A DNA stretch of 64,000 nt from Pseudomonas purpurea. Its GTDB lineage: Bacteria; Pseudomonadota; Gammaproteobacteria; Pseudomonadales; Pseudomonadaceae. Numbering within the stretch: the stretch's first letter is position 1; each line of letters opens with the position of its first letter. Under the pieces are notes generated by a model. The model was not told the DNA's origin. It saw only the letters and a program-made list of their open reading frames with translations, and made no database searches. Positions 13,955-23,013 of the stretch are shown in pieces. Where the stretch lies: the NCBI RefSeq assembly GCF_039908635.1, contig NZ_CP150918.1:2661001-2725000 (forward strand), given 5' to 3'. Position numbers and translations under genes: made by a program.

Positions 13955-14231
13955 CTTCGTTGTTGCTGAATATTTCAAGCGTGGTGATTGCTGGTTACGC
14001 ATCTTGCTTTTCTTGATTGTATTTCGGTGGATGGCCCGGTTTTCGCGGGCTGTGCGTCAAAAAGCCATCTCACATGAACTGATCCGCATAACCACTCCTC
14101 AGCTAAGTCTTTGCTTCTGTTGATTAATCCCGGACAATCGCGCCCCTGTTACGGCCGGGGCGCTGCCTGTCAGCCTTTTCTGACTCGTCCCGACTGTGTG
14201 GCAAATGACCGGAATGCGGAGATCCGACCGG

Positions 14232-15512
14232 ATGAATGATCAGGCCAATAGCGTTGATGAACGCTTTGAAGCGGCGGCACCAGCTAGCCTTGCAAGCTGG
14301 AATCGCCATGACACCACCTGGATGCTGGGCCTGTTTGGCACGGCGATTGGTGCGGGTACCCTGTTTTTGCCGATCAACGCAGGCCTGGGCGGTTTCTGGC
14401 CGCTACTGATTCTGGCGGTGTTGGCATTCCCGATGACGTTCTATGCACACCGCGGTCTGACCCGTTTTGTGCTTTCCGGCCGTGAAGGCGCGGACATCAC
14501 TGAAGTGGTCGAGCAGCATTTCGGGATCAAGGCCGGTGCCCTGATCACTTTGCTGTACTTCTTCGCGATTTTCCCGATCCTGCTGATTTACAGCGTGGCC
14601 CTGACCAACACCGTGGGCAGCTTTCTTGAACACCAGTTGCACATCATGCCGCCACCGCGGGCGATTCTGTCGTTCGTGTTGATCCTCGGCCTGCTGGGCG
14701 TGGTGCGTTGTGGCGAGCAGGTGATCGTCAAGGCCATGAGCCTGATGGTGTATCCGTTCATTGTGGCGCTGCTGTTTCTGGCGGTGTTCCTGATTCCGCA
14801 CTGGAATGGCGGCATCCTCACCACGGCAAGCACGCTGCCTGAACCGTCGGCGTTGATGCACACGCTGTGGCTGGCGATTCCGGTGATGGTGTTCTCGTTC
14901 AACCATTCGCCGATCATCTCGGCGTTCGCGGTGGACCAGAAGCGTCGTTATGGCGTTCATGCCGAAGAGCGCAGCTCGCAGATCCTGTCCCGCGCCCACC
15001 TGCTGATGGTGGTCATGGTGCTGTTCTTCGTGTTCAGTTGCGTGCTGACCCTGTCGCCGGCCCAATTGGCTGAAGCGAAGGCGCAGAACCTGTCGATTCT
15101 GTCGTACCTGGCCAACCACTTCAGCAACCCGACGATCGCCTTCGCGGCGCCGTTGATTGCATTCGTGGCCATCTCCAAGTCGTTCCTGGGCCACTACATC
15201 GGCGCCAGCGAAGGTCTCAAGGGCTTGATCGTCAAGAGCGGCAAGCGTCCAGCACCCAAGACGCTGGACCGCATGACCGCAGCCTTCATGCTGGTGGTGT
15301 GCTGGATCGTTGCCACGCTGAACCCGAGCATCCTGGGCATGATCGAAACCCTGGGCGGGCCGATCATCGCGGCCATCCTGTTCCTGATGCCGATGTATGC
15401 GATCCGCAAGGTTCCAGCCATGGCACGTTATCGCGGCCAGGCCTCCAACGTCTTCGTGACGCTGGTGGGCCTGGTAGCGATTTCGGCGTTGATCTACTCG
15501 CTGACCGCCTAA
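14232..15512 (+). CDS. HAAAP-family amino-acid permease (serine/threonine transporter type)
   Basis: A 426-residue, eleven-helix hydroxy/aromatic amino-acid permease related to SdaC/TdcC. Landmarks are MLGLFGTAIGAGTLFLPINA in helix 1, SGREGADITEVVEQHFG, and FSFNHSPIISAFAVDQKRRY in the middle loop. It imports amino acids, probably serine and/or threonine, by H+ or Na+ symport across the inner membrane. The ATG at 14232 is preceded by GGAG at about 10 bases; an in-frame GTG at 14196 is less likely. It is divergent from the gene controlled by a Thr attenuator, which fits a shared hydroxy-amino-acid theme, but the link is inferred. Confidence 0.88.
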   Translation: MNDQANSVDERFEAAAPASLASWNRHDTTWMLGLFGTAIGAGTLFLPINAGLGGFWPLLILAVLAFPMTFYAHRGLTRFVLSGREGADITEVVEQHFGIKAGALITLLYFFAIFPILLIYSVALTNTVGSFLEHQLHIMPPPRAILSFVLILGLLGVVRCGEQVIVKAMSLMVYPFIVALLFLAVFLIPHWNGGILTTASTLPEPSALMHTLWLAIPVMVFSFNHSPIISAFAVDQKRRYGVHAEERSSQILSRAHLLMVVMVLFFVFSCVLTLSPAQLAEAKAQNLSILSYLANHFSNPTIAFAAPLIAFVAISKSFLGHYIGASEGLKGLIVKSGKRPAPKTLDRMTAAFMLVVCWIVATLNPSILGMIETLGGPIIAAILFLMPMYAIRKVPAMARYRGQASNVFVTLVGLVAISALIYSLTA

Positions 15513-16156
15513 GCCTGCGCTTGCTCAGCCTGGTGCGCCAGCGCTGAGCCGGACCGCAGGAATGCCTGATTGAGCGAATTAACGGCCGCTGACTGCGCAT
15601 GAAGCGCGGCGCGGCCGTTTTTTTGATAGGCCGCAAAACTCAGTGCCACCACGTGATCGCGGTTCAACCGCTGTGGCTGGCCGAGCCGGCGCAGTTGCAC
15701 GCCATGGTGCAGGAAGTAGCGTTCAAGCGAAGGGGTCGTGACTGCCACGACCTCGGTCGCACCCAGCGACCAGGCGCTGTGCAGGCTGTTCCAGAACACC
15801 CGCATGGGCAGTTTTCCATTCTCGAGTGCGCTGGCGGCAAAGCGTGAGATCTCCCAGGTATCGCTACGCCGGGGGACGGCTTGATCGCACAAGAAACCAA
15901 ACACGTCGGACAGCAGGTACGGTTGAGTGGTCGGCAACAGCCGGGCGCAGCCGTGGACACGCTGGTCGCGGTCCAGGGCGATGATGTAGCGGGTATCGGC
16001 ATGGTCGAACTGGTCGAACTCGCGGTCTGGCAATGGGCTGCTGGTGTTCAACTCCCAGCCCAGTTGCTTGACGAAAACGTTGTGCCGGTAGCGGCCGAGG
16101 TCGTCATGCAACGCAGGCGTGAGCTCCTGACGATGCCGTGATATCACGGTAATCAT
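15509..16156 (-). CDS. rhlI: acyl-homoserine-lactone synthase, RhlI-like
   Basis: A 215-residue LuxI-family autoinducer synthase. It makes an N-acyl-homoserine lactone from S-adenosylmethionine and acyl-ACP. All invariant family residues are present: R24, F28 and W34 (YRHNVFVKQLGW), D48 and D51 (REFDQFDHADTRY), R72 (GCARLLPTTQPYLL), F86, E102 and R105 (WEISRFAASA). The segments FDQFDHADTRYI, CARLLPTT and VVAVTTPSLERYF match P. aeruginosa RhlI more closely than LasI. The C-terminus is about 14 residues longer. AAGGAT lies 8 bases before the ATG. It follows rhlR by 31 bases and probably shares its transcript. The chain length of the signal (C4 by analogy) is inferred. Confidence 0.92.
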   Translation of the reverse strand: MITVISRHRQELTPALHDDLGRYRHNVFVKQLGWELNTSSPLPDREFDQFDHADTRYIIALDRDQRVHGCARLLPTTQPYLLSDVFGFLCDQAVPRRSDTWEISRFAASALENGKLPMRVFWNSLHSAWSLGATEVVAVTTPSLERYFLHHGVQLRRLGQPQRLNRDHVVALSFAAYQKNGRAALHAQSAAVNSLNQAFLRSGSALAHQAEQAQA

Positions 16157-16187
16157 GGGTCGATATCCTTATCGTTGGGGGGTGGCG

Positions 16188-16913
16188 CTAGATCAAGCCC
16201 AGCGCGGCGCCATAGGCCGCTGCGAGGGTTTTATTGGCCGCGCCGAATTTTTTCTGAATGACCTTCAAGTGAAAATTCACGGTGTTCACCGAGATGCCGA
16301 GGATCAGCGCGATTTCACCCGAACTTTTACCATCGGCGGTCCATTGCAGTACTTCCCGCTCGCGCAGGCTTAGCTCGATGAGTTCCGACGTCGTTTGTTG
16401 ATGGCCGATGTCAGCCAGGCGCGAGTTCAGTACTTCGACGATACAGTGCAGGCGCAGGCGTATATGCTCGCATTCCGCCGCCCCGATGGGGGTGTAGGTG
16501 CGGGCCAGTGACAGCACGCTCAAGGTGTTGTTGGGTGAACGCATCGGCAAGGTCACCCCGAATCGCAGCCCCCAGTCCTGTGCCTCGCTCCATAAACATG
16601 GGCTGTTCTCGAACAGCGCATCGTTCCAGAGCATCATTTGGGTCGAGCGCAGCCCGTTCATGATCGACGGATCGATTGTCGCGTAGTTGTTCTGCTGATA
16701 ATGCTCTAGCCAATGCTTGGGGTATGAACCGTAGATGTCGGTTTTCGGGCGGGTGAAGGGGACCGAATGGCGCACACCGTAAGCGTAGTAATCAAAACCC
16801 AGCCGCTGAACTTCCTGCTCCAGAAGCGCAAAGATCTGTGGGGCTTCTTCTAGCTTGAGCATCTCCATGCGCAGGTCATTCCACCAGTGCATGAAGCCTG
16901 ATTCCTTTTCCAT
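16188..16913 (-). CDS. rhlR: LuxR-family quorum-sensing regulator, RhlR-like
   Basis: A 241-residue autoinducer-dependent activator, the same length as P. aeruginosa RhlR. The N-terminal ligand domain (about residues 20-165) has RLGFDYYAYGVRHSVPFTRP, DPSIMNGLRS and EAQDWGLRFGVTLPMRSPNN, close to RhlR. The C-terminal LuxR helix-turn-helix (about residues 175-235) has LREREVLQWTADGKSSGEIA and ends AAAYGAALGLI. W and Y residues expected around the lactone pocket are retained. Start MEKESG is chosen for length match; MLPVHG or MHWW starts are possible. A promoter with TTGACA sits in the 117-bp gap upstream. It is expected to bind the RhlI-like product and lux-type boxes. Confidence 0.92.
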   Translation of the reverse strand: MEKESGFMHWWNDLRMEMLKLEEAPQIFALLEQEVQRLGFDYYAYGVRHSVPFTRPKTDIYGSYPKHWLEHYQQNNYATIDPSIMNGLRSTQMMLWNDALFENSPCLWSEAQDWGLRFGVTLPMRSPNNTLSVLSLARTYTPIGAAECEHIRLRLHCIVEVLNSRLADIGHQQTTSELIELSLREREVLQWTADGKSSGEIALILGISVNTVNFHLKVIQKKFGAANKTLAAAYGAALGLI

Positions 16914-16953
16914 GGTCGTCCGTCCTGCTGCCGTGCATCCGTGCACAGGAAGC

Positions 16954-16981
16954 AATCTAGTTCACGACGACCGTCTGTCAA
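16954..16981 (-). promoter_or_regulatory. putative promoter of rhlR
   Basis: On the minus strand a perfect TTGACA (16976-16981) and TAGATT (16954-16959) are separated by 16 bases, about 40 bases before the rhlR start. No lux box was recognised here, so rhlR may be transcribed constitutively as well as by read-through from rhlB. Confidence 0.5.
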
Positions 16982-17030
16982 CGTTTCAAACGCTTATTTT
17001 TTCAAGGTGAACGCTCTGGCATGGGGTTCT

Positions 17031-18302
17031 TCACGACGCTGTGCGCAGCAGGCGCGGTTTTGTTGGCGGTCGGCAGCGTTCGATGATGCTGGCCGCGTGC
17101 TCGCAGGCCAGCGTGGCGGGCGGTGAAAGCTGGCGAGTGCGGGCGCAGGCCGCCACCATGCGAGCGTCCTCCAGCAAATCGATCAAGGCGTCACGCAGGC
17201 GGGCTTCGTCCAGCGGCAAACTCAGTTTGATGCCGCACCCCATGCGTACCAGTCGCTCGGCGTTGTCGAACTGATCGTGGGCGGCCGGCATGACGATTTG
17301 CCCGACACCGGCGGCCAGCGCCAGGCTCATGGTTCCGATTGCACCTGAATGGACCAGGCCCGCCGTGTGTGGCAGCAGGGCCCCCATGGGCGCGTGCTCG
17401 CGCTGCAACGCGCTCAGGGGCAGGCGTTTGAGGGGCGCCCGGTGCTCGCCGAGGAAAATCCCTCGTGCCCCGAGTTTTTGCAGGATCGACAGGGCCAGGG
17501 GGTAGAAGTGTTCGTCAAACTGCCGGGCCGCACCCGGTGCGAAGACGATGGGCGGCTGGCCTGCGCGAAGGAAGGCCTGCAATTCATCGTCAAGGCTTTC
17601 GTCGGTACGTTCGGACAGCGGAAAACCCGTCATGTGCAGCGGCTGCGGCCAGTCTTGCTGGACGGGGGCGAACCATTCGGGAAACAGGCAGATGACGCCA
17701 TCGGGCGCGTGCATCCACTGACTGAACACGTGTTTTACCGTGCCCTGCAAACCTTTCTTGTGGCGCAGGGCATTGATCTGCGGGGCGCAGATCCGATCCA
17801 TCTTGAGGTATTCAATCGTGCGGCAGAGCATTTTGCGCATGACCAGCGGAATGCCCTGCGGAACCTTGAACCGGGGGTGTACCGGTGGCAGGTGGGCAGA
17901 GATCAGCGTGGCGGGGGAGACCTGCACCGAGAGGTAAGGCATGCCGAATTTTTCCTGGGCGACCCGTGCCCCCAGCGCCCATAACGAACCCACGACAACG
18001 ATGTCGTCGTGTCGCCGGGCGGCGATGTACTCGTAGACCGGTTCGAGCATGCCCGAGAGGGCTTTCCACCGCGCAGAAAACGAGGTCCTGGAGCCCCGGG
18101 GTTTCGAGTCGCTCATGGCCGCGTTGCCGGTCGTTTCGTCGCAGATGGCGGCAAACTCCAGGCCGTTGTGTTCAATTGTCGTGGCAAACGCGGGCAGGCT
18201 GCACACCGTCACAGGGTGCCCACGGCGCACCAGTGCCTTACCCAGGCTGATGAAGGGACGGACGTCGCCCTCCGAGCCGATGGCGATCATGATAATGCGC
18301 AT
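17031..18302 (-). CDS. rhlB: RhlB-like rhamnosyltransferase (GT1/GT-B glycosyltransferase)
   Basis: A 423-residue GT-B glycosyltransferase very similar to P. aeruginosa RhlB (426 residues). RhlB joins dTDP-L-rhamnose to 3-(3-hydroxyalkanoyloxy)alkanoate to make mono-rhamnolipid. Matching blocks are RHDDIVVVGSLWALGARVAQ, PYLSVQVSPATLISAHLPPV, QWMHAPDGVICLFPEWFAP, QQDWPQPLHMTGFPL, and the donor-binding AAHDQFDNAERLVRMGCG. The frame is intact end to end. Its usual partner RhlA, which supplies the lipid acceptor, is not encoded here; the upstream neighbour is a divergent SulP gene. A lux-box-like site lies 98 bases upstream. Alternatively it may glycosylate another hydroxy-lipid. Confidence 0.85.
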   Translation of the reverse strand: MRIIMIAIGSEGDVRPFISLGKALVRRGHPVTVCSLPAFATTIEHNGLEFAAICDETTGNAAMSDSKPRGSRTSFSARWKALSGMLEPVYEYIAARRHDDIVVVGSLWALGARVAQEKFGMPYLSVQVSPATLISAHLPPVHPRFKVPQGIPLVMRKMLCRTIEYLKMDRICAPQINALRHKKGLQGTVKHVFSQWMHAPDGVICLFPEWFAPVQQDWPQPLHMTGFPLSERTDESLDDELQAFLRAGQPPIVFAPGAARQFDEHFYPLALSILQKLGARGIFLGEHRAPLKRLPLSALQREHAPMGALLPHTAGLVHSGAIGTMSLALAAGVGQIVMPAAHDQFDNAERLVRMGCGIKLSLPLDEARLRDALIDLLEDARMVAACARTRQLSPPATLACEHAASIIERCRPPTKPRLLRTAS

Positions 18303-18399
18303 AACTCCTCCTTGAGTTGCAGCGCCGGATCGAGGTGCAAGCGTGTCTGCGGGTCGCGTGCAGTGGGAGGGATTCTTATCCGCAGACCGGGTCGGGACA

Positions 18400-18417
18400 A
18401 CTACCTGATCTGGTAGC
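18400..18417 (-). promoter_or_regulatory. lux/phz-type box upstream of rhlB
   Basis: ACTACCTGATCTGGTAGC is an imperfect dyad: CTACC(T)GATC(T)GGTAG has 14 of 16 symmetric positions. It resembles the CTAC...GTAG boxes recognised by PhzR and RhlR. On the minus strand, GATAAG lies 20 bases after the box, so the box would be centred near -42, as in LuxR class II activation. It is the best candidate for quorum control of the rhlB-rhlR-rhlI transcript. Confidence 0.65.
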
Positions 18418-18594
18418 GGAGCGGGTGCGCCGGGGTAAGCTGCGCCGTTGGTCGGCGATGGGCCGAATAGACGCTACACTCCCTCACCGACCCGAAAAGG
18501 CCTGATTGGAGACGCTAGATGGCTCGCGAACACTCGCTACTGACCACCGTGCCTCGTTGGGAGGCCTGCCTTTGCGCGGGCCAGGGAGGCCCGA

Positions 18595-20241
18595 TTGCCG
18601 GCTGAGCCTTCCAGCGTCCGCGACCGGCCGAACCGTTGGCAGGACCTGTTGGCAGGGTTGTCGATTGCCGGTTTATTGCTGCCAGAAGCGGTCGCTTACT
18701 CGAGCATTGCCGCGTTGGCGCCTCAGGCTGGCGTCATTGCATTGTTTGCCGGGCTGCTGTGCTATGGGCTTCTGGGCACCAGCCGGTTTGCGATTGTCTC
18801 GGCGACGTCGTCTTCGGCGGCGGTACTGGCGGCGGCCAGCATGACGCTGTCAGGCGGTGATCCGGCGCTGCGCTCCACGCTGGCTTTCGGCCTGGTGTTG
18901 GTCACCGGCGGGTTCTTTTTACTGGCCGGGTTGTTCCGGCTCGGCAGCGTTACGTCCTTTATTGCCAAGCCGGTGCTGCGCGGGTTTGCCTTTGGCCTGG
19001 CGCTGACGATCATCCTCAAACAACTCGCCAGTGTGGTCGGTGTGCACTTGAGTGACGGCAACCTGATCCGCTTTTTGCCTCAGTTGCTGGAGCAACTGCC
19101 TCGGTGGAACTGGGCGGGCGCGGGTGTCGCGGCGGTGGCGTTGATGTTGTTGTGGTGCTTCGCACACTTCCGGCGTTTGCCCGGTGGACTGCTGGTGGTG
19201 ATGATCGGTATCGGGGCGGGTCAATGGCTGAATCTGCCAGATCATGGCGTCCCGTTGATAGGTGCGATTGACCTCAGCCTGGAGGTGCCACGGTTGCCAG
19301 CGCTGCCCTTTGCCGATTGGCTGCGGCTGGGGGAGCTGGGGTTTGCCATGGTGATGATTCTTTACGCAGAGTCCTACGGCTCGATCAGCGCCTTCGCACT
19401 CAAGCACGGTGATCGGGTGACCTCCAACCGGGACTTGCTGGCCCTCGGCGCGGCCAATCTGCTGTCCGGGCTGTTCCATGGCATGCCGGCGGGGGCGGGG
19501 TATTCCGCGACGTCCGCCAATGAAGCGGCGGGCGCGACCTCGCGGCTGGCCGGTGGGCTGGCGGCGCTGGTGGTGTTGCTGATTGTGCTGACGGTGTTGC
19601 CCTACATCGCCTTGACCCCGGAGCCGGTGTTGGCGGCCATTGTCATGCATGCGCTGGGCCGTGGCCTGAGCTTGCAGCCGCTGGGCCGTTACTTCATCTG
19701 GCGTCGTGATCGCCTGCTGGTGATCTGCGCCGTGGCGGCAGTGCTGGTGCTCGGCGTGCTGGACGGTCTGTTGCTGGCGGTGGCGATCAGTGTGTTGCTG
19801 ATGCTCAAACAGATGTCGGCGGCGGATATCCAGATCCTCGGGCAGATCGGCGGCGGGCATGATTTTGTCGACCTGCAACGCCATCCTTTGGCCAAAGCCG
19901 TGCCGGGTGTGCTGATTGTCCGGCCGAGCGAGGCGCTGTTCTTCGCCAACGCCGAGCGGATTCTGGGGGCTGCGTTACGACTGGTCCGACATTCCGAGGT
20001 GCCGATTCATACGGTGATTCTCAGCCTGGAGGAGTCGCCGGACCTGGACGGCACCAGTATCGAGGCGCTGGAGGAGTTTTTCCTTCGTGTGCGTCTTGAA
20101 GGCAAGCGCTTGGTGTTGGCGCGCCTCAAGCATGAAGCGCTGAGCGTGCTGGCCTCGCTGCCGGAGGTCGAGCGTTCACGGGTCAGCCTCAGCGGCCTGA
20201 GCGTGGACGGTGCGGTGCAAGAGGCGGAACGCCGGGCATAA
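18595..20241 (+). CDS. SulP family anion transporter with STAS domain
   Basis: A 548-residue SulP permease. Membrane part: LLAGLSIAGLLLPEAVAYSS, GLLCYGLLGTSRFAIVSATS, and MPAGAGYSATSANEAAGATS near the TM8-9 signature. The cytosolic C-terminal STAS domain (about residues 430-540) contains PGVLIVRPSEALFFANAERI and VILSLEESPDLDGTSIEAL. Members transport sulfate, bicarbonate or dicarboxylates; substrate is not deducible here. The start is TTG at 18595: an AGGGAGG Shine-Dalgarno lies five bases before it and no in-frame ATG fits. A terminator follows at once. Confidence 0.88.
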   Translation: MPAEPSSVRDRPNRWQDLLAGLSIAGLLLPEAVAYSSIAALAPQAGVIALFAGLLCYGLLGTSRFAIVSATSSSAAVLAAASMTLSGGDPALRSTLAFGLVLVTGGFFLLAGLFRLGSVTSFIAKPVLRGFAFGLALTIILKQLASVVGVHLSDGNLIRFLPQLLEQLPRWNWAGAGVAAVALMLLWCFAHFRRLPGGLLVVMIGIGAGQWLNLPDHGVPLIGAIDLSLEVPRLPALPFADWLRLGELGFAMVMILYAESYGSISAFALKHGDRVTSNRDLLALGAANLLSGLFHGMPAGAGYSATSANEAAGATSRLAGGLAALVVLLIVLTVLPYIALTPEPVLAAIVMHALGRGLSLQPLGRYFIWRRDRLLVICAVAAVLVLGVLDGLLLAVAISVLLMLKQMSAADIQILGQIGGGHDFVDLQRHPLAKAVPGVLIVRPSEALFFANAERILGAALRLVRHSEVPIHTVILSLEESPDLDGTSIEALEEFFLRVRLEGKRLVLARLKHEALSVLASLPEVERSRVSLSGLSVDGAVQEAERRA

Positions 20242-20293: not shown

Positions 20294-22894
20294 TTAGGCT
20301 TGAACGACCGGAATGTTGGCGTTCGCTGCAGCTTCACGGAACTCGGCGATCTGGTCGAAACTCAGGTAGCGATACACATCGCTGGCCATGGTGTCGATTT
20401 CCTTCGCGTAGGCCATGTACTCCTCGACGGTCGGCAGGCGACCCAGGATCGAAGCCACCGACGCCAACTCGGCCGAAGCCAGGTAAACGTTGGCGCCATC
20501 GCCCAGACGGTTCGGGAAGTTACGGGTCGACGTGGACACGACGGTGGAGTTCGGTTCTACGCGTGCCTGGTTGCCCATGCACAGCGAGCAGCCCGGCATT
20601 TCCATGCGTGCGCCAGCCTTGCCGTAGATGCCGTAGTAGCCTTCTTCGGTCAGTTGGTGAGCGTCCATCTTGGTCGGCGGCGACAGCCACAGACGGGTTG
20701 GCAGCTGACCCTTGACCTGATCCAGCAGTTTACCGGCAGCGCGGAAGTGACCGATGTTGGTCATGCACGAACCGATGAACACTTCGTCGATCTTCTCGCC
20801 AGCAACGCTGGACAGCAGACGGGCGTCGTCCGGGTCGTTCGGCGCGCAGAGCACAGGCTCCTTGATGTCGGCCAGGTCGATTTCGATGGTTTCAGCGTAT
20901 TCGGCGTCAGCATCGGCAACCATCAGCTCAGGGTTGGCGATCCAGGCTTCCATCGCTTGAGCACGACGTTCCAGGGTACGCGCATCGCCGTAGCCTTCGC
21001 CGATCATCCAGCGCAGCAGGGTGATGTTGGAGCTCAGGTACTCGGTGATCGACTCTTTCGACAGCTTGATGGTGCAACCGGCAGCGGAACGTTCGGCCGA
21101 GGCGTCGGACAGCTCGAAGGCTTGTTCGATGCTCAGGTTGTCCAGGCCTTCGATTTCCAGGATGCGGCCGGAGAAGGCGTTCTTCTTGCCTTTCTTCTCT
21201 ACGGTCAGCAGGCCAGCCTGGATCGCGTAGTAAGGAATGGCATGAACCAGGTCACGCAGGGTGACGCCCGGTTGCATTTTGCCTTTGAAGCGCACCAGGA
21301 TCGATTCCGGCATGTCCAGTGGCATCACGCCAGTGGCTGCGGCGAACGCGACCAGGCCGGAACCGGCCGGGAACGAGATGCCCATCGGGAAACGGGTGTG
21401 GGAGTCACCACCGGTACCGACGGTGTCCGGCAGCAGCATGCGGTTCAGCCAGCTGTGGATGATGCCGTCGCCCGGACGCAGGGAAACGCCGCCGCGGGTC
21501 ATGATGAAGTCGGGCAGGGTGTGGTGAGTGGTGACGTCGATCGGCTTTGGATAAGCAGCGGTGTGGCAGAAGGACTGCATGACCAGATCGGTCGAGAAAC
21601 CCAGGCATGCCAGGTCTTTCAGTTCGTCACGGGTCATCGGGCCAGTGGTGTCCTGGGAACCGACGGTGGTCATTTTCGGCTCGCAGTACGTACCTGGGCG
21701 AACGCCCACTACGCCGCACGCCTTGCCGACCATCTTCTGCGCCAGGGTGAAACCCTTGGTGCTTTCAGCCGGTGCTTCAGGCTTCTTGAACAGCTCCGAA
21801 GGTGGCAGACCCAGCTCGGTACGCGCCTTCTCGGTCAGGCCACGGCCGATGATCAAAGGAATACGACCGCCGGCACGGACTTCGTCCAACAGCACCGGGG
21901 TCTTCATTTCGAAGGTGGTCAGGACTTCGTCAGTACCGTGTTTGCAGACTTTGCCAGCATGCGGGTACAGGTCGATCACGTCGCCCATGTTCATGTTGGT
22001 AACGTCGAATTCGATTGGCAGTGCGCCGGCATCTTCCATGGTGTTGTAGAAGATCGGAGCGATTTTGCTGCCGAAGCAGAAACCGCCGGAGCGCTTGTTC
22101 GGCACGTAAGGAACGTCGTCGCCGAAGAACCACAGCACCGAGTTGGTGGCCGATTTACGCGACGAACCGGTACCGACCACGTCACCGACGTAGGCGATCG
22201 GGAAGCCGTCGTTGCGCATCTGCTCGATTTGTTTCATCGGGCCGATGGAGCCTTGTACGTCAGGAACGATGCCGTCACGGGCCATTTTCAGCATGGCCAG
22301 GGCGTGCAACGGGATGTCCGGGCGGGACCAGGCATCAGGCGCAGGGGAGAGGTCGTCGGTGTTGGTTTCGCCGGTGACCTTGAACACGCGCAGGCTGATC
22401 TTGTCGGCCAGGGTCGGGCGGTTCTTGAACCATTCGCCGTCAGCCCAGGATTGCAGTACGCCTTGGGCGTGAGCATTGCCGTTCTTGGCTTTTTCCGCGA
22501 CGTCGTGGAAAGCATCGAACATCAGCAGGGTGTGCTTGAGTTGCGCTGCGGCAACAGGTGCCAGTTCAGCGCTGTCGAGCAGGTCAACCAGGGTCACGAT
22601 GTTGTAGCCGCCCTGCATGGTGCCGAGCAGTTCAACAGCGCGTTTCTTGTCGATCAGAGGGGACGTGGCTTCGCCTTTGGCCAGTGCGGACAGGAAGCCT
22701 GCCTTTACATAGGCCGCTTCGTCCACGCCAGGTGGAACGCGATTGGTGATCAGGTCCAGCAGAACAGCTTCTTCGCCTGCCGGGGGATTCTTCAGCAGCT
22801 CGACCAGGCCTGCAGTTTGTTCGGCGTTAAGCGGCTGGGGAACGATACCCAGTGCTGCACGCTCTTCGATATGTTTGCGGTAGGCTTCAAGCAC
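20294..22894 (-). CDS. acnB: bifunctional aconitate hydratase 2 / 2-methylisocitrate dehydratase
   Basis: An 866-residue AcnB (E. coli 865), interconverting citrate and isocitrate through cis-aconitate with a 4Fe-4S cluster. It opens [16 protein letters not shown], has the HEAT-like domain with [20 protein letters not shown], and the cluster cysteines in [15 protein letters not shown] and [12 protein letters not shown]. The GTG at 22894 is chosen because it aligns with the E. coli N-terminus and has GAGGG about nine bases upstream; a longer ATG start would add 20 unconserved residues. AcnB is the main TCA-cycle aconitase in exponential growth. The 507-base region upstream contains two inverted-repeat structures that may affect its mRNA. 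Confidence 0.97.
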
Positions 22895-23013
22895 AGTTAT
22901 TACCCTCATCAGTGGTCCCAAATGGGTGTCCGGGACGCTCATCCAGAAACTCACGGCACTCAGCGCTTGGGGGCTTTTTGAGCCGCAAAGCCTGAGTTGC
23001 CGGAATTCCTCAC

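Follow-up and report, generated by a model that had tools for sequence, protein, structure and literature searches.

An rhlB-rhlR-rhlI locus of Pseudomonas purpurea that lacks rhlA, and a sister lineage with the reverse loss

The window, i.e. the whole stretch of DNA analyzed here (64,000 nucleotides, positions 2661001-2725000 of the complete single-contig genome of Pseudomonas purpurea, 5,931,563 bases), carries the rhamnosyltransferase gene rhlB and the quorum-sensing pair rhlR-rhlI without the rhlA of complete rhamnolipid operons. All three genes lie on the minus strand with open frames, in the order and at the lengths given in the initial annotation: rhlB (17031-18302, 423 aa, a rhamnosyltransferase I homologue), rhlR (16188-16913, 241 aa from ATG, a LuxR-type receptor/activator; an upstream TTG gives a longer open reading frame (ORF) of 255 aa) and rhlI (15509-16156, 215 aa, an acyl-homoserine-lactone synthase with the domain Autoind_synth, PF00765). 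The conserved left border of the site is the serine-threonine transporter gene stp/sdaC (14196-15512, plus strand), whose 3' end overlaps that of rhlI. On the other side, a sulP-type permease gene (18595-20241, plus strand) is divergent from rhlB, as had been annotated, and is followed by the conserved right border, presumably the aconitase gene acnB by its sequence (20294-22954, minus strand). The ORFs of the locus confirm that no rhlA stands beside rhlB. The 292 bases before rhlB (18303-18594), noted earlier as free of any rhlA remnant, indeed hold no rhlA ORF, but they do contain what appears to be the rhlA promoter. Its parts, all on the minus strand, are an rhl/lux-type box CTACCAGATCAGGTAG (18401-18416) followed by TTGTCCC, a putative -10-like element TAAGAAT placed by alignment 22 nt past the box (18372-18378), the junction left by the loss of rhlA (18314-18371, approximate limits) and the rhlB ribosome-binding site (18307-18313) within CAACTCAAGGAGGAGT. 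From the box to the rhlB ATG there are 98 nt.

Among thirteen tabulated rhlA loci, twelve have CTACCNGATCNGGTAG, followed by TTGT, 110-231 nt before rhlA, and the thirteenth (P. aeruginosa PA7) has a variant box; the box before rhlB is the sole place in the genome matching CTACCNGATCNGGTAG with no mismatch. At 23 nt past the box, six rhlA loci have a TAAAA-type element (L025, L026, L161, L155, L153, L251), three have CGAAACT or TGAAACT (L027, L159, L160) and three GAGAATC (L029, L030, L253). Homology to the region upstream of rhlA in the relative G673 begins at the sulP start, takes in the box and the -10-like element and ends near 18363, and the rhlB-side homology starts near 18319. Since the G673 homology ends past the -10-like element and CAACTCAAGGAGGAGT is common to the rhlB upstream regions of the window and of the genome G182 (L158), rhlA was deleted between its own promoter and the rhlB ribosome-binding site, with the box as the ancestral rhlA promoter box. 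We infer that RhlR acts on this box, which now stands before rhlB.

The acnB-stp interval is a conserved site, at which six rhl arrangements were found over 14 genomes. Seven of them (P. cedrina L025, P. paracarnis L026, Pseudomonas sp. WS 5079 L027, G364, G295, G032 and G218) have the complete rhlA-rhlB-rhlR-rhlI without sulP. The window has sulP, rhlB, rhlR and rhlI; G673 (L251) has sulP, rhlA, rhlR and rhlI; G405 has rhlA, rhlR and rhlI; G415 retains the promoter together with rhlR and rhlI; and G182, G409 and G677 have a 226-aa rhlB fragment only. What looks by eye like a relic of the rhlB start is present in G405 and G415. Complete operons also occur outside this site, in PA7 and in strains L18 and M47T1. 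Conversely, sulP without rhl occupies the interval at eight loci covering both borders (L162-L167, L170, L171); L168 and L169 cover one border each, and all ten loci were chosen for having sulP, so they are no measure of how often the site is empty.

The closest relative of the window among the genomes in the trees is G673, the pair receiving 100% bootstrap on acnB, stp and the ydfX-like gene together and 95% on RhlR and RhlI. The placement of the window between the rhl-bearing and the sulP-bearing clades has 41-61% support, and only the pairing with G673 is relied on here. A search of whole genomes with an ordinary RhlB as query (E<=1e-5) gave no match in G673, G405 and G415, and matches in five of the eight genomes searched; G673 and G405 are draft assemblies in about 50 and 40 contigs, respectively, with a completeness of 99-100%. 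By parsimony, the common ancestor of the window and G673 had the order acnB-sulP-rhlA-rhlB-rhlR-rhlI-stp, which was present in no genome examined. One ancestral operon thus appears to have been split reciprocally, the window line having lost rhlA and the G673 line rhlB.

The loss of rhlA from the operon was not compensated by a copy elsewhere that a similarity search could find. A search with the RhlA of a complete operon gave a single match in the window's own genome at E<=10 (43% identity), the protein PhaG, whose gene is flanked downstream by tRNA-Gly and upstream by a gene that we take, from its sequence, to be rsuA. The rsuA/tRNA-Gly synteny is a mark of phaG (PMC7054101), and in a tree this PhaG and three other tRNA-Gly-adjacent proteins group apart from RhlA with 100% support. 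For the synthase of hydroxyalkanoyloxyalkanoate (HAA), RhlA, which belongs to a rhamnolipid operon or at least to its genome, only PhaG was found here, and the earlier suggestion that RhlA is elsewhere in the genome is rejected. Nor is PhaG favored as a stand-in for RhlA: P. putida carries phaG (PMC7054101), and in the experiments cited from PMC5352749 P. putida with rhlB alone yields no rhamnolipid. According to the same source, P. aeruginosa RhlB alone in P. putida gives rhamnolipid only when HAA is supplied, the cells taking up HAA from the medium and converting it to mono-rhamnolipid; RhlA by itself produces HAA, and RhlB by itself produces nothing unless HAA is available (PMC5352749). A second RhlA type with 57-61% identity is present, among the matches listed, in 72 of 398 genomes of the genus (rows at E 1e-98 or better, PhaG and rhl-operon copies left out). 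It precedes an MFS transporter gene, with no rhlRI alongside, in all four loci inspected, a transporter-linked form already described (PMC7054101), and is rejected as the source, being absent from the window's own genome. The supply route of dTDP-L-rhamnose is likely present, judged from rmlC (TIGR01221, 275 bits against a cut-off of 155.75), the only gene of the route tested. A search for RhlC (TIGR01556) returned nothing in the own genome; its cut-off was also unreached in all six genomes and 14 controls, i.e. with no positive control.

The window RhlB has the GT-B fold of GT1 type. Its identity is 59% to the PA7 protein and 57-62% to rhlA-linked Pseudomonas RhlBs over 423 aa, versus 39-46% to the remaining loci listed, which are of Burkholderia type or belong to an rhlA-less Pseudomonas group. 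An identity as a macrolide-type GT1 enzyme, named beforehand as an outcome that would weaken the claim, was rejected, the NCBIfam scores being far below the cut-offs and the nearest relatives being rhlA-linked RhlBs. Within this identity, the protein is unusually divergent. Among 85 aligned RhlB-like proteins, with near-invariant columns defined as those in which at least 97% of the other proteins agree, it departs at 13 of 90 such columns, compared with 0-4 for ten rhlA-linked Pseudomonas RhlBs left out singly, and nine of the 13 fall in residues 59-83 and 255-259. Residues unique to the window occupy 12 of the 90 near-invariant columns, 14 of the 88 intermediate ones and 27 of the 239 that are variable; for residues unique to PA7 the counts are 0, 5 and 23, respectively. 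Relative-rate tests with four complete-operon partners and three outgroups (sharing sequences and so not independent) showed an excess on the window side in 12 of 12, with 60-73 window-unique against 26-37 partner-unique changes (1.6 to 2.8 times, p 0.015 to 2e-6).

The divergence extends to residues with a suggested function. H263 is essential in P. aeruginosa RhlB according to PMC13185158; the window has Gln261 at the equivalent position, where ten of ten close RhlBs have His and Burkholderia-type RhlBs do not. The near-invariant residues of RhlB, the H263 equivalent included, are therefore not all kept in the window protein. The dTDP-rhamnose and HAA contacts of P. aeruginosa RhlB are docking predictions (PMC13185158), numbered here on PA7 and not on the reference of that paper. 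The window differs from PA7 at five of the 12 docked dTDP-rhamnose contacts, and the RhlBs of G364 and P. cedrina at two each; contacts 231, 260 and 324 in the window are unlike all three compared RhlBs. At the five docked HAA contacts, the window differs at two, as do both controls. In the structural model, the predicted local distance difference test score (pLDDT) falls below 50 at residues 65-73 and 258-260 in the window RhlB and not in P. cedrina RhlB at the same alignment rows, a weak comparison since the alignment used for both contains closer relatives of the control protein. No close orthologue of the window rhlB was found in overlapping draws of 298, 398, 398 and 342 genomes, and its synonymous sites were judged, not computed, to be too diverged for the ratio of non-synonymous to synonymous rates (dN/dS). 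Taken on sequence, RhlB appears to have lost constraint, and the donor-site erosion predicts weak transfer of L-rhamnose from dTDP-rhamnose to HAA.

The other two genes of the cluster behaved differently. RhlR has the autoinducer-binding and GerE DNA-binding domains, is nearest to RhlR proteins (61% identity to PA7) and finds P. aeruginosa RhlR as its best solved structure (340 bits over the whole length). It breaks seven of 103 invariant columns, compared with 10 of 113 for PA7 and 0-5 for the others, and its relative-rate tests lean to the window in 12 of 12, with p<0.05 in none (p 0.058-0.27). RhlI, with its Autoind_synth domain and its gene beside rhlR, is nearest to RhlI proteins (48-51% to PA7, depending on the alignment used, and 70-73% to those of the seven complete operons at the acnB-stp site). 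One of its 69 invariant columns is broken, compared with 13 of 82 in PA7 and 0-2 in the others, and p<0.05 was reached in none of 12 rate tests (p 0.24-1). RhlI looks normal, and RhlR nearly so. The earlier argument that the three genes are intact and so under selection fits rhlR and rhlI; for the eroded and accelerated rhlB it is doubtful.

A counterpart comes from RhlA in the lineages that lack RhlB. Over 73 RhlA proteins, scored at columns where at least 95% of the others agree (counts which are not on the 97% scale used for RhlB), G673 RhlA, which retains its Ser, Asp and His motifs, departs at one of 69 columns and G405 RhlA at three, within the 0-6 of eleven complete-operon RhlAs. A rate excess was seen in none of six tests for G673, and a significant one in none of six for G405. 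The asymmetry between RhlA and RhlB after partner loss thus appears clear in rate but not absolute. A near-normal RhlA and an eroding RhlB fit the biochemistry, because RhlA makes HAA unaided and RhlB makes nothing without HAA (PMC5352749).

The reading we prefer, with a probability of roughly 0.72, is that this is an orphaned operon, in which RhlB lost its acceptor and is drifting or shifting, and no rhamnolipid is made de novo. An ancestral quorum-controlled rhlA-rhlB-rhlR-rhlI operon would have stood at the acnB-stp site; a deletion visible in the aligned sequences took rhlA and spared the RhlR-type promoter, with rhlB now directly behind it. By homology and from the box, RhlI would make an acyl-homoserine lactone, and RhlR would bind this signal and activate rhlB. 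As no RhlA was found, no HAA is expected and RhlB would be without its normal acceptor, hence under relaxed or changed constraint. On the other side of the split, G673 would be a quorum-controlled HAA producer after the loss of rhlB, the rhlR-rhlI pair having been retained in both lineages. Several observations weigh against this. The rhlB frame is open and aligns without gaps to the RhlBs that complete operons encode at the same site, its third-position GC (0.785) is like that of its neighbors, the predicted structure retains the GT-B fold, and the docked contacts G9, S10, D13, D343 and Q344 are kept. The chance of a stop-free frame after 40 neutral missense changes is about 0.22, counting nonsense mutations alone. 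Moreover, columns invariant in ten close RhlBs do not separate the window (40 of 218 broken) from PA7 (31 of 249), which is a deep branch, and at columns invariant in the eleven complete-operon RhlAs, G673 differs at 14 of 131 as opposed to 0-10 among the eleven (G405 at seven).

The open frame, together with the retained promoter, ribosome-binding site and fold, would also suit an RhlB recruited to another acceptor, either a 3-hydroxy fatty acid in free form or some other hydroxylated metabolite, to give a new quorum-controlled glycoside. The concentration of nine of the 13 changed near-invariant columns in two regions could come from a change of specificity, and the dTDP-rhamnose route is likely available. 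However, the window-unique residues are spread near-evenly over conserved and variable columns, as under relaxed constraint; the equivalent of the essential H263 and three donor contacts are altered (PMC13185158), the changed regions lose model confidence (with the weak control mentioned above), and no new partner gene was seen adjoining rhlB at the locus. We consider recruitment unlikely, and the use of another hydroxy-lipid for a new glycolipid, as the initial annotation proposed, is without positive support and not favored, given the eroded donor-loop and N-domain positions and the dependence of RhlB alone on HAA in PMC5352749. Tentatively, and still with the odds well against it, the pathway might be divided between the sister lineages, the line with quorum-controlled RhlA exporting HAA and the quorum-controlled RhlB of the other line having adapted to glycosylate HAA taken up from outside, or a different hydroxy-lipid; if true, a cooperative surfactant would be completed between strains, or a new glycoside would be made under quorum control. 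Simple scavenging, by which RhlB would make rhamnolipid from the HAA of rhlA-only neighbors (for instance G673, G405 or carriers of the transporter-linked rhlA), can draw on the conversion of medium HAA by P. putida with rhlB alone (PMC5352749), on the rhlA-only relatives at the acnB-stp site and on the frequency of the second RhlA type in the genus. We regard it as improbable, since donor-site erosion predicts weak activity on the old substrates and there is no sign that these strains meet. Least credible, and very improbable, is a hidden RhlA, or an HAA synthase of another family, with RhlB working normally. PhaG, an RhlA relative, is present, but this sole RhlA match lies in phaG synteny and apart from RhlA in the tree (HAA synthases unrelated to RhlA were not searched for), P. 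putida with only rhlB makes no rhamnolipid in the work cited from PMC5352749, and normal use would leave the erosion of RhlB unexplained.

Compared with known systems, the locus shares with PA7 rhlABRI (L028) the order rhlB-rhlR-rhlI and, before PA7 rhlA, a related box and a TAAAAA element; it differs in lacking rhlA, in having the box before rhlB and in the many changed near-invariant positions of RhlB, and acnB and stp were not found around the PA7 cluster. The operons of L025, L026 and L027 agree in site, promoter and gene order (RhlR 63-67%, RhlI 70-73%, RhlB 60-61%), but have rhlA and no sulP, the opposite of the window. G673 shares the acnB-sulP-rhl-stp layout and the promoter (RhlR 73%, RhlI 79%, SulP 86%) and, with rhlA kept and rhlB lost, is a mirror image of the window. 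In the P. fluorescens group, a lone rhlA linked to a transporter gene (SBW25 type, PMC7054101) is likewise a rhamnolipid gene without its partner, but it is rhlA and not rhlB, at another site, without rhlRI beside it in the four loci inspected. Earlier publications describe both lone rhlA genes and rhamnolipid genes of the P. fluorescens group (PMC7054101, PMC9207406), including rhlAB or rhlABRI clusters in strains A506 (PMC7054101) and PF07 (PMC9207406). A search of open-licence papers, which is not proof of absence, found none among those listed that deals with an rhlB lacking its rhlA or with reciprocal losses in the acnB-stp interval; what seems new here is an rhlB-rhlR-rhlI cluster on a presumed rhlA promoter with a sister of the reverse loss. 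Such a sister pair would be a natural test of the fate of each half of a two-step cooperative pathway after partner loss with the quorum circuit kept: RhlA, whose product is itself a surfactant, appears to stay near normal, and RhlB, with nothing to act on, appears to erode. The RhlR-RhlI pairs without rhamnolipid synthesis would allow their other targets to be asked about directly. The locus is also a warning that rhlB, rhlR and rhlI in a genome may not predict rhamnolipid.

Some further loci were noted at or near these subjects. The 226-aa rhlB fragment, an N-terminal part joined to a C-terminal tail, is an open frame in three genomes (L157:7808, L158:7206, L252:7413). In G744 (L253:8479-9747), at another site, rhlB appears frameshifted, possibly by a sequencing error, and rhlA, rhlR and rhlI are single matches. 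From 302 RhlB loci, 80 named ones were kept. The fetched DNA gave an RhlA-like match for 68 of them and none for the other 12; these 12 (39-42% identity) are all from Pseudomonas, and three have less than 4 kb upstream. RhlB-like glycosyltransferases of the 39-42% group without a matching rhlA occur in P. corrugata, P. mediterranea, P. frederiksbergensis and others (L009-L021, L078, L081, L085, L088, L091, L092, L094, L096, L098-L100, L103). In a few loci, their neighbors look by eye like carrier domains of non-ribosomal peptide synthetases or an outer-membrane efflux protein, and they are possibly lipopeptide glycosyltransferases. A luxR-luxI pair lies about 1 kb before rhlA in two of the 80 named loci (Paraburkholderia/Burkholderia L083 and L102), with the luxR-like gene from 6637 and 6688 (35% to RhlR) and the luxI-like gene from 7456 and 7437 (43-44% to RhlI), respectively.

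With up to two mismatches, CTACCNGATCNGGTAG was found at 23 places in the genome as opposed to 55 for the reversed control, so only the six places with 0-1 mismatch were examined: the one before rhlB, two inside ORFs, one in a terminator-like hairpin and two intergenic. An RhlR-box regulon is not claimed. A one-mismatch box with 9-bp perfect inverted-repeat arms (G000:C1:3761748) lies about 450 bases upstream of a seven-gene run (G000:C1:3754359-3761295, L219:2360-9296), a candidate quorum-controlled small-molecule cluster encoding a hexapeptide acetyltransferase, a class-III aminotransferase, a transketolase-like thiamine pyrophosphate (TPP) protein, an SDR, a DUF1349 protein, a HAD phosphatase and an O-methyltransferase. 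Another one-mismatch box, with the same GTAGTTG tail (G000:C1:894628, L175:1501-1516), stands about 75 bases before a 127-aa ORF (L175:1591-1974) with no Pfam match.

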